Below the pieces are notes generated by a model. It was not told where the DNA came from and did not search any database. It was given only the letters and a program-made list of their open reading frames with translations. Positions 30,739 through 32,664 of a DNA stretch of 64,000 bases are shown here, one piece after another. The DNA lies in the NCBI GenBank assembly GCA_001592145.1, contig BCWJ01000006.1:62001-126000 (forward strand), written 5' to 3'. Source of the DNA: Xylanimicrobium pachnodae JCM 13526 = NBRC 107786. GTDB lineage: Bacteria; Actinomycetota; Actinomycetes; Actinomycetales; Cellulomonadaceae. Each line of letters starts with the position of its first letter. The stretch's first letter is position 1. The translations under genes were made by a program, and so were the position numbers.

Positions 30739-31254
30739 TCAGAGCACCGGGGTGATGTGGTGGTAGCCCCGGTCGTGGAACACGAGCGGCGCGGCGTTCG
30801 CGAACCGGCGGTGCCACAGCGCTTCGACCGTGACAAGGTGGCTGGAGCCGACGGCGATGCGGCCGGTGATCCGTGCGTGCAGCCAGGCGGACGCCCCGTC
30901 GATGACCGGCTCGCCCGTGTCGAGACGGTGCCAGCCGCCCGCTGCGAACCGGTCGATGCCGCTCGTGGCGAACCGGGTGGAGACCTCGGCCTGGCCGGCG
31001 GCGAGGAAGCTGACGGCCACAGTGTCGGCGGCCGCCACGGCGGGCCAGGACGACGAGGAAGCCGCGAGCGAGAAGGCCAGCAGAGGCGGGTCTGCCGACA
31101 CCGAGATGACCGATGTGGCGGTGAACCCCACCGGCCGGTCTGCGTGCGTGGTGGTGATGACGGCGACGCCGGCCGGGTGGGCGCGGAACACGGACCGGAA
31201 CGCGTCGGGGGTCACGGCGTCCAGGGCCGTCGGCTGGGGGTGCGTCGTCGTCAT
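30739..31254 (-). CDS. Flavin reductase family protein
   Basis: 171 aa, flavin reductase (FMN-binding split-barrel) fold: RAHPAGVAVITT, PVGFTATSVISVSADPPLLAFSL, and a C-terminal PLVFHDRGYHHI that matches the family's HxGxYH-like end. Expected to reduce FMN/FAD with NAD(P)H to supply a monooxygenase. ATG 31254 overlaps the FMN reductase stop by 4 nt (ATGA), so the two are translationally coupled. No monooxygenase gene is in the immediate cluster. Confidence 0.9.
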   Translation of the reverse strand: MTTTHPQPTALDAVTPDAFRSVFRAHPAGVAVITTTHADRPVGFTATSVISVSADPPLLAFSLAASSSSWPAVAAADTVAVSFLAAGQAEVSTRFATSGIDRFAAGGWHRLDTGEPVIDGASAWLHARITGRIAVGSSHLVTVEALWHRRFANAAPLVFHDRGYHHITPVL

Positions 31255-31808
31255 CGGGACCTCCGGGGTGCTGACGAGGTGGCGAGCGTGGGGACCGGCA
31301 CGATCGCCTGCTCCCCGAACGGGAGCTCGTCAAGCCACAGGTCGGTGTGCACGCCGGCGTCGGAAAGCTCTGGCTCGAGCAGCGCGAGCGCGACATCGGG
31401 CACGGTGGCACCCAGCTCGGCGAGCAGCGGTACCAGGTGGGCCTCGCCTGCGCTCTGGTGCGCAGGGCTCGCTGAGACGACGAGCGGCACCGTCCGGAGC
31501 CCGTGCAGGGCGCCAGGTCCGTACAGGTCGAGGAACGCCTTGAGCAGCCCCGTGTAGGACCCCTTGTAGACAGGGGTGGCGACGATGAGCAGGCGGGCGC
31601 CGGCGACGGCGCGCAGCGCGTCGTCGACCCGCGGGTGCGTCGGTGCGAGGACCTCGTCGGCGACGTCGGCCAGGTCGATCGTCACGTGCGTGTCCGGGAT
31701 GTCCAGTCGGGCTGCGACCCGCCGCGCGACAGTCTCCGCGGCGGCCCTGGTCCGGGACCGGGCGCGCGGGTTGCCCACCAGCACCACGACGCCGCTCCGC
31801 GCGGTCAT
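31251..31808 (-). CDS. NADPH-dependent FMN reductase (SsuE/MsuE-like)
   Basis: 185 aa flavodoxin-fold reductase: N-terminal GNPRARSRT phosphate loop, then VATPVYKGSYTGLLKAFLD, a hallmark of SsuE-type enzymes that supply FMNH2 to alkanesulfonate monooxygenases. ATG 31808 overlaps the TGA of an upstream in-frame-unrelated ORF (ATGA). Expressed behind a 156-nt leader carrying a Cys-containing tiny ORF (31981-32052), which suggests sulfur control. Substrate pathway is an inference. Confidence 0.9.
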   Translation of the reverse strand: MTARSGVVVLVGNPRARSRTRAAAETVARRVAARLDIPDTHVTIDLADVADEVLAPTHPRVDDALRAVAGARLLIVATPVYKGSYTGLLKAFLDLYGPGALHGLRTVPLVVSASPAHQSAGEAHLVPLLAELGATVPDVALALLEPELSDAGVHTDLWLDELPFGEQAIVPVPTLATSSAPRRSR

Positions 31809-32157
31809 CGGGTGCCCCGGGTGCGGGTGGCCGTAGGTGCCGCGTCCGAGAGTGTGTCCGTGCACGGGCGCACCAGGGTTGCGTCGGCGGTGCGGAGGGC
31901 ATGGCGAAGCGAAGGCATGAGGGTTTGCTCCATCAGGTGGTCGCGCCCGCGTGGGACGGGCAGTGGTCGTGTGATCGGGGTCAGCCGCGACAACGACAGC
32001 CGAGGGCCAGGGACCGTCGGCGTGCGGCGAGGAGTCGACGCGTGGAGCGCATGCCGACGACCGTACGACCAACTGAAGCGAAATGCTCCACAAAGAGGGG
32101 CGGTCTTACCCAGTGAGACGGCCCTCGTGTGCCGCGGGATGACGGCCGGCGCCGGCT
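31809..32157. promoter_or_regulatory. Leader and promoter region of the flavin reductase operon
   Basis: Gap between Rrf2 gene end (32158) and FMN reductase start. It holds the leader ORF (31981-32052) with its -10, a short GCCCG/CGGGC dyad downstream at about 31948-31964, and a second longer frame (31805-31993) ending on the FMN reductase start that I do not accept as a gene. Confidence 0.5.
31981..32052 (-). CDS. 23-aa Cys-containing leader peptide upstream of FMN reductase
   Basis: ATG 32052 to TGA 31981, 23 residues, Arg-rich, ending LALGCRCRG with two Cys codons close to the stop. TACGGT (32060-32065) sits 7 nt before ATG, the same leaderless spacing seen at many genes here. No annotated frame is needed to explain it otherwise. 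Polycysteine leaderless ORFs attenuate sulfur operons in mycobacteria; here Cys content is lower, so homology of mechanism is unproven. Confidence 0.5.
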   Translation of the reverse strand: MRSTRRLLAARRRSLALGCRCRG

Positions 32158-32664
32158 TCAGGCAGGGTCGCGCTGGGCGTCGCGCGCCATCTCACGCAGG
32201 TGCGGGCGGGTGCGCCAGGCGTCGTCCGAGGCGAGGAGCTGCGCGACGGGCGCCGGGATCTGACCCGCGACCACGTCGGCGAGCGTGACGACGTCGAGCA
32301 CGGACCGCATGGCGCACCGCAGGGCGACCCAGACGTCACGCAGGGGTGCGGACGCCCCCGGGAACGTGACGTCCTCCACGAACCGGCCGCCCACGCTGGC
32401 GAGCGGCCCGTCGATGGCCCGGATCACGTCGGCCACCACGATCTGGTCCGGGGGAGCGCTCAGTCGGGCGCCGCCGTCGGCGCCACGCCGCGTCTCCACG
32501 ATCCCCGCCTGCTTGAGGGTGTTCAGGATGACCAGGACGTAGTTCGCGGGCACCTGCTGCGCCGCCGCGAGCTCGTCCGACTTGGAGTAGCGCTCGTCGT
32601 CGAACCGCGCGGCGAGCTCCACGCAGAGCCGGACGGCGTAGTCGATCTTGGCGGTGATGCGCAC
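32158..32664 (-). CDS. Rrf2 family transcriptional regulator, no Fe-S cysteine triad
   Basis: 168 aa. N-terminal winged helix (ITAKIDYAVRLCVELAA; SKSDELAAAQQVPANYVLVIL; GGARLSAPPDQI) typical of Rrf2. The C-terminal half lacks the three-Cys cluster used by IscR/NsrR/RsrR, having only LRCAM, so it is more like CymR, a cysteine-metabolism repressor. GTG 32664. Just upstream of the Cys-leader and flavin reductases, it is a candidate sulfur regulator of them (inference). Confidence 0.88.
   Translation of the reverse strand: MRITAKIDYAVRLCVELAARFDDERYSKSDELAAAQQVPANYVLVILNTLKQAGIVETRRGADGGARLSAPPDQIVVADVIRAIDGPLASVGGRFVEDVTFPGASAPLRDVWVALRCAMRSVLDVVTLADVVAGQIPAPVAQLLASDDAWRTRPHLREMARDAQRDPA

Follow-up and report, generated by a model that had tools for sequence, protein, structure and literature searches.

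In the 64-kb window (the whole stretch of DNA analyzed), a short open reading frame (ORF) on the minus strand lies between an upstream gene for a CymR-like Rrf2-family regulator and a downstream gene pair encoding an FMN reductase and a flavin reductase. With a probability of roughly two in three, this ORF is a leaderless, cysteine-responsive regulatory leader of the reductase operon, situated below a CymR-like operator. That the leader is real and linked to cysteine is very probable. The leader is conserved in place, the genes downstream are linked to sulfur, and the regulator is of a sulfur-sensing type; taken together, these make it a probable ribosome switch for cysteine shortage. The features of the locus are listed in Table 1.

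Table 1. Positions in the window of the leader ORF, its neighbors and the candidate regulatory elements
Feature	Position	Strand	Remarks
Leader ORF MRSTRRLLAARRRSLALGCRCRG	32052-31981	minus	23 codons, ATG start; same-length ORF in G008, G010, G001, G002
Leader landmarks	ATG 32052; TGT 31998-31996; TGT 31992-31990; TGA 31983-31981	minus	
-10-like TACGGT	32065-32060	minus	7 nt before leader ATG, leaderless spacing
Imperfect 17-bp inverted repeat TGGAGCATTTCGCTTCA	32074..32090	minus	over -35 region; possible Rrf2 operator
Second inverted repeat GTCTCACTGGGTAAGAC	32103..32119	minus	possible second operator
Predicted hairpin with both Cys codons and stop codon	31966..31997	minus	RNAalifold pairs 56-59:86-89 and 62-65:78-81
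Rrf2-family regulator, CymR-like	32664-32158	minus	upstream of leader, codirectional; TIGR00738 101.9 bits
Second short ORF, 37 aa	31918..31805	minus	ATG 31918 behind GGAG 31931-31928; stop overlaps FMN-reductase start (ATGA)
FMN reductase, SsuE-like	31251..31808	minus	PF03358 79.1 bits
Flavin reductase	30739..31254	minus	PF01613 119.9 bits; ATGA overlap with FMN reductase

A short Cys-tailed ORF and its relatives

Read on the minus strand, positions 32065-31981 begin TACGGT-CGTCGGC-ATG and end GGC TGT CGT TGT CGC GGC TGA. The initial annotation had described a 23-residue ORF ending in C-R-C-R-G, and its sequence, tail and coordinates were all borne out, on the minus strand. The -10 element that it placed at leaderless spacing is likewise present as TACGGT, 7 nt before the ATG; because a sigma-70 consensus scan of 31700-32300 found no promoter, this is best regarded as a weak -10 match without a recognizable -35. 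Rfam returned no match for 31700-32200 at E values up to 1.

The rarity of such an ORF was gauged by a scan of both strands for ORFs that start with ATG, span 6-40 codons and have TANNNT 5-8 nt before the start. Two ORFs in the window carry one or more Cys among their last six residues, and only the leader carries two or more; the same scan of 57 loci of relatives (319,897 bases), used as background, gave one and none, respectively. TGT makes up 18 of the 152 Cys codons in 39 long ORFs of the window, and the leaders use mostly TGT, a preference left unscored because the leaders are mutually related. The tail pattern occurs twice in the source genome, in the leader and once within a long ORF. 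Order-wide, it has no discriminating power, matching 48 of 396 genomes compared with about 49 matching the reversed control. At 30 loci drawn from the order-wide list, an in-frame ATG within 100 nt was found only in the window, two Oerskovia loci and locus L164, and the L164 match lies in a frame that is open for 244 codons.

Relatives were searched in 149 genomes at E values up to 0.001, a threshold at which many matches are distant. FMN-reductase matches were obtained in 125 of these genomes and Rrf2 matches in 66. By their listed coordinates, the two genes lie side by side in the window, in G008, G010, G001 and G002, and in G043, which belongs to another genus and has no leader in the gap. 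G008, G010, G001 and G002 are the only same-genus genomes with synteny among ten, four of the ten being less than 80% complete. In each of the syntenic four, the gap between the Rrf2 and FMN-reductase genes contains a leader of 23 codons with one or two Cys (MRSSRRLVAARRRHLALGCRRRG, MRSSRRLIAARRRHLALGCRCRG, MRTSRRFVSARRRHVAAGCRRRP and MRASRRTNPTRQRHLTVGRRCCS), and length, start and stop are identical across the five syntenic loci, window included. Across the genus, no single Cys position is shared by every leader. The leader ORF of G002 is still open with Cys19 lost (codon 19 is Arg), and its operon (L145 2933-4146) looks decayed, with the FMN reductase in several frames and the flavin reductase and Rrf2 gene partly matched; given this break-up of the reductase genes across frames, the G002 leader may be drifting. 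Purifying selection on the peptide was not detected among the five same-genus leaders, amino-acid changes being at the null expectation in each of the ten comparisons (P 0.49-0.86). Of the 147 pairwise base differences, 80 lie at the first codon position rather than the third.

Leaders were also found in Oerskovia; the DNA of three members of genus g23 is 100% identical to that of named Oerskovia loci. A DNA search detected them in six of seven genomes, and a homologous Rrf2 gene (53-57% identical) lies upstream in all four that were checked (G090, G079, G032 and G051). In these four, the leader reads MHTE[P/L]THRA...APGC[R/C]CRPV and starts seven nt after TAGCGT or TACCGT. The Oerskovia tail, GC[R/C]CRPV, resembles that of the window and the remaining residues are unrelated; similar Cys tails are thus attached to N-terminal parts that have nothing in common. 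Oerskovia leaders have either 22 or 25 codons, and the 9-nt difference preserves the frame. Only two bases vary within the tail of the six sequences, one causing an Arg/Cys exchange and one synonymous, and CCC is present in four of the six. Nine leaders, five from the genus and four from Oerskovia, all passed a scan that requires T[A/T]NNNT at a distance of 5-8 nt from the ATG; the spacings observed were 6-8, and a -10-like hexamer is also visible in G463 and G464.

Conserved Cys codons near the stop had been named at the outset as the feature to look for in relatives. The ORF is kept and so, for the most part, are the Cys, with the first tail Cys kept in 10 of 11 leaders and a Cys at the third tail position in 9 of 11, although two same-genus leaders (G008 and G001) have one Cys only. 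Among 30 Rrf2 loci fetched from the best matches of the 66 genomes, a leader follows the Rrf2 gene at 8 of the 17 with at least 53% identity (window included) and at none of the 13 below 52%; counting the partial Rrf2 gene of G002, the total is 9 of 31.

Regulator, candidate operators and downstream genes

Members of the Rrf2 family that hold an Fe-S cluster have three Cys at about 92-110. The regulator encoded upstream of the leader contains just two Cys, at positions 14 and 117, and is without this cysteine cluster. Among solved structures, it is best matched by 3lwf, a putative regulator, and by CymR 2y75, and at 71.3 bits it does not reach the cut-off of 195 for the CymR equivalog NF047409. 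The description of the protein as a CymR-like Rrf2 regulator without Fe-S cysteines can therefore be retained, but not the statement that it follows the reductase genes, as its gene precedes the leader, in the same orientation.

Several homologous Rrf2 genes have sulfur-type neighbors. In G067 these are the same reductase pair, an NtaA/DmoA-family monooxygenase that scores above its cut-off and an SsuA-family binding protein that scores below its own; G019 carries a sulfate-binding protein (below cut-off). A SAM-IV riboswitch (76.9 bits) is located in G020 (L150 2539-2635) between the homologous Rrf2 gene and an ORF ending CCR, with NtaA/DmoA-family genes downstream. No recognizable sulfur gene was seen by eye alongside the Rrf2 homologues of G053, G034 and G081 (58-62% identical). 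In G090, the one Oerskovia operon checked by profile, best matches for the genes behind the leader include fumarate-reductase-like flavoproteins, and the sulfonate-transporter matches all fall below cut-off (SsuA 93.1 bits against 163.5, SsuC 237.5 against 347 and ATPase 231.2 against 395). Separately, we observed in G067 (L118/L148) a short ORF, MTTHPTRHRSSCRPARTAAPPPPPRETP, behind the Rrf2 gene, with a -10-like hexamer close upstream and a stop that appears by eye to overlap a start of the sulfonate-type binding-protein gene as ATGA.

At the position corresponding to the 17-bp inverted repeat over the -35 region, Oerskovia carries the dyad TGGACCGTTTCGGTCCA or a version one base off. Related dyads occur behind other homologous Rrf2 genes, and those of G043, G052 and G067 are of TTGAGC-N5 type; not all copies of these -35-region dyads are perfect, and several were recognized by eye only. 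The exact 17-bp pattern is found at four places in the source genome, the other three inside ORFs. Allowing one mismatch, the same genome has 27 and 27 matches compared with 134 and 139 in the reversed control, and a dyad that is not enriched, and indeed rarer than its control, permits no statement on a wider regulon. The second dyad, GTCTCA-N5-TRAGAC, begins 29 nt further up. It is exact behind the Rrf2 gene in G010, G001 and G002 as well, and recognizable by eye in G008. Exact copies exist at three places in the source genome, one before an O-acetylhomoserine sulfhydrylase gene and one near a siderophore-type gene (by eye), and with one mismatch there are 14 and 11 matches against 4 and 6 in the control.

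Downstream, the gene pair expected behind the leader is present, with matches to PF03358 and PF01613, and flavin-reductase matches adjoin the FMN reductase at most loci compared. Calling the FMN reductase SsuE-type is justified as a resemblance but not as a family assignment, given a TIGR03567 score of 76.7 bits against a cut-off of 164. Ribosomes probably enter at the ATG at 31918 and not at the FMN-reductase ATG at 31808. The arrangement of the 37-aa ORF is alike in G008 and G002 (with a TTG start in G002), and in G010 and G001 the equivalent of the 31918 start is in frame with the FMN reductase.

Proposed mechanism and alternative readings

In the favored reading, the CymR-like regulator probably binds the -35-region dyad, so that transcription would be set by sulfur status, and the spacing of the -10-like hexamer suggests a transcript that starts at or beside the leader ATG. 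When Cys-tRNA is scarce, the ribosome would pause on Cys codons two to five codons before the stop and cover the 5' arm of the hairpin that contains the Cys and stop codons, allowing more entry at 31918 and, by coupling, at 31808. When cysteine is plentiful, the ribosome would run off, the hairpin would form and expression would fall. We infer the pausing, the sign of the effect and the output, be it translation or Rho-type termination.

The RNAalifold pairs of this hairpin are kept in five of five same-genus sequences. In stability, none of the five goes beyond shuffled sequences (z = -0.44 for the window, and -1.34, -0.64, -0.36 and +0.74), and z ranges from -1.21 to -3.05 in six Oerskovia sequences. 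Accessibility of the GGAG was modeled for three states (ribosome absent, P site at Cys19, P site at codon 23), giving values of 0.18/0.44/0.17 for the window, 0.03/0.19/0.07 for G008, 0.01/0.15/0.02 for G010, 0.27/0.28/0.30 for G001 and 0.29/0.29/0.28 for G002, in which codon 19 is Arg. Opening of the GGAG by a ribosome at Cys19 was rejected as a model, the rise being confined to three of the five sequences and absent from G001 and G002. A clamp between GCTCCA at the 5' end of the leader and a downstream TGGAGC was rejected as well; by eye it is attractive in the window and G008 and has mismatched pairs in G001 and G002, and it scored no better than other windows or shuffles, with a weak exception for the window sequence, which ranked 2 of 102 (shuffles 0.077; G001 was left unscored). 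As candidates for mutually exclusive structures, the predicted hairpins do not exceed shuffles or other windows, and the search for intrinsic terminators in 31700-32300 returned 0 terminator-like sites. The proposal of a cysteine attenuator in the initial annotation is upheld in part: the conserved leader, the Cys tail in Oerskovia, the CymR-like regulator and the sulfur neighbors speak for it, and the lack of a convincing RNA switch and of purifying selection speaks against it.

An unlikely, though not negligible, alternative is that the region combines a promoter, operators of the Rrf2 and GTCTCA types and a structured 5' leader RNA, the ORF being incidental or serving for ribosome loading and Rrf2 alone sensing sulfur. 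Dyads at like places, the fully kept hairpin pairs, the unconstrained peptide and the presence in G043 of the same regulator without a Cys leader would all agree with this. Such an arrangement does not, however, explain why ATG spacing, frame and stop are preserved in every leader found, why the Cys tail stays though other residues differ, or why the Oerskovia leaders differ in length by whole codons. In another reading, the region encodes the N-terminus of an extended FMN reductase in the +1 frame (a 280-aa TTG ORF); in the window this frame is open from 32093, and base differences are concentrated at what would be its third position. We consider this highly improbable, as 2-nt indels just past the leader stop shift the frame among relatives, TGA is present at the GGAG site in G008 and G001 (by position), G002 has stops within the stretch, and a start codon preceded by a ribosome site was not seen. 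Finally, with 7 to 9 Arg among 23 residues of the same-genus peptides, and codons partly conserved in the genus, a leader responsive to arginine might be imagined, but the Oerskovia leaders have only 3 or 4 Arg and keep the Cys tail, and the neighbors are of the sulfur type, leaving this reading with next to no credibility.

Mini-leaders and known cysteine leaders

Outside the window, contig C31 of the source genome (19084-19310; L230; L221 1501-1725) contains a leaderless mini-leader, MTRRMCS, under a GTCTCA-N5-TGAGAT dyad. The gene behind it encodes an O-acetylhomoserine sulfhydrylase (NF005872, 710.7 bits, cut-off 703), an identification made by profile in the source genome only and by an N-terminal motif in five loci. 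A DNA search with this region produced matches in 53 of 59 genomes at E values up to 0.1, many of the weaker ones chance-like. Thirty similar loci were fetched and five left out, and an [R/C]RMC mini-leader is present in 21 of the 25 that were scripted, also in other genera; as the loci were chosen by similarity and the script demanded the RMC codons, 21 of 25 is not a frequency. Folding from the ATG gave z no higher than -2.0 in 17 of the 21 (range +0.79 to -6.49), and a hairpin spans the Cys codon and stop, mostly by pairing of the RMC codons with a conserved CGCACGTTCG after the stop. In a possible competing hairpin, the GCGCACG part would pair instead with a CGTGCG(C) further down; this partner occurs in 19 of 21, a count for which no null was computed. 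Phylum-wide, the strict exact mini-leader pattern matched only the source genome's own copy (1 of 396 genomes). The canonical RRHVDL leader had no exact match in the source genome, and nine matches with one mismatch compared with four in the control.

Mycobacterial polycysteine leaderless short ORFs (Canestrari et al. 2020) are described as having Cys codons near the C-terminus and preceding sulfur-linked genes (PMC9031893, PMC9094748, PMC4633059), and a further report states that no conserved terminator hairpin was found for mycobacterial cys leaders (PMC1262725). Against these descriptions, the leader reported here is similar in the location of its Cys codons and in the sulfur-linked genes that follow, and its -10 spacing suggests that its start may be leaderless as well. 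It differs in its one or two Cys, non-contiguous in the window, in its Arg-rich body, and in its placement behind a CymR-like Rrf2 gene and dyad and before an FMN reductase. The contiguous Cys codons named in PMC9031893 are not found in the window (C-R-C), nor in G008 or G001 (one Cys). A short Cys-ending leader is likewise the subject of NCBIfam NF042934 (putative leader peptide) and NF042936 (Ms4527A family), yet the NCBIfam leader models gave 0 families for the five same-genus peptides at E values up to 10, and the cut-offs of these two were not reached. In Kribbia (L044), a leader ahead of an FMN-reductase homologue gives matches to both NF042936 and NF042934 that stay below cut-off. The leader of the window would act in the manner of the mycobacterial ones, but as the contiguous-Cys feature and the NCBIfam profiles both failed, we file it as a variant, not a member, of the mycobacterial polycysteine leaders.

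The metL leader of Streptomyces lividans is reported to be leaderless, ends CMCRRMCAF, is without a typical terminator, precedes metNIQ and was assigned to methionine by its authors (PMC8079986). It shares with our leader Cys near the end and the lack of a terminator, and probably the leaderless start, whereas the downstream genes are different and the sequence is otherwise unrelated. With CymR of Bacillus and Staphylococcus, the regulator has in common the Rrf2 family and CymR structures among its best solved matches; it differs in falling below the NF047409 cut-off and in adjoining a leader peptide. Unlike a classical transcription attenuator, the locus has no intrinsic terminator after the leader (31700-32300). 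Among the papers listed by literature searches, none of those examined for the names mentions Cellulomonas or Oerskovia and, by title, none deals with such leaders beyond the papers cited.

We tentatively propose, as a possibility that currently falls short of even odds, that Cellulomonadaceae and their neighbors possess a two-layer sulfur regulon. GTCTCA-N4/5-TGAGAC or CymR-like dyads would drive leaderless transcripts that open with very short Cys-tailed ORFs, with a GC[R/C]CR tail before organosulfur genes and RRMC mini-leaders before O-acetylhomoserine sulfhydrylase. Sulfur status would then be sensed in series, first by the transcription factor and then by the ribosome, through as little as one Cys codon. 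If true, cysteine attenuation would operate without runs of Cys codons, leaders could evolve by retaining a short tail as the remaining residues are replaced, and Cys leaders would be tied to a CymR-like regulator in Actinobacteria. Such leaders would also provide a simple test of the minimum number of Cys codons required for sensing.
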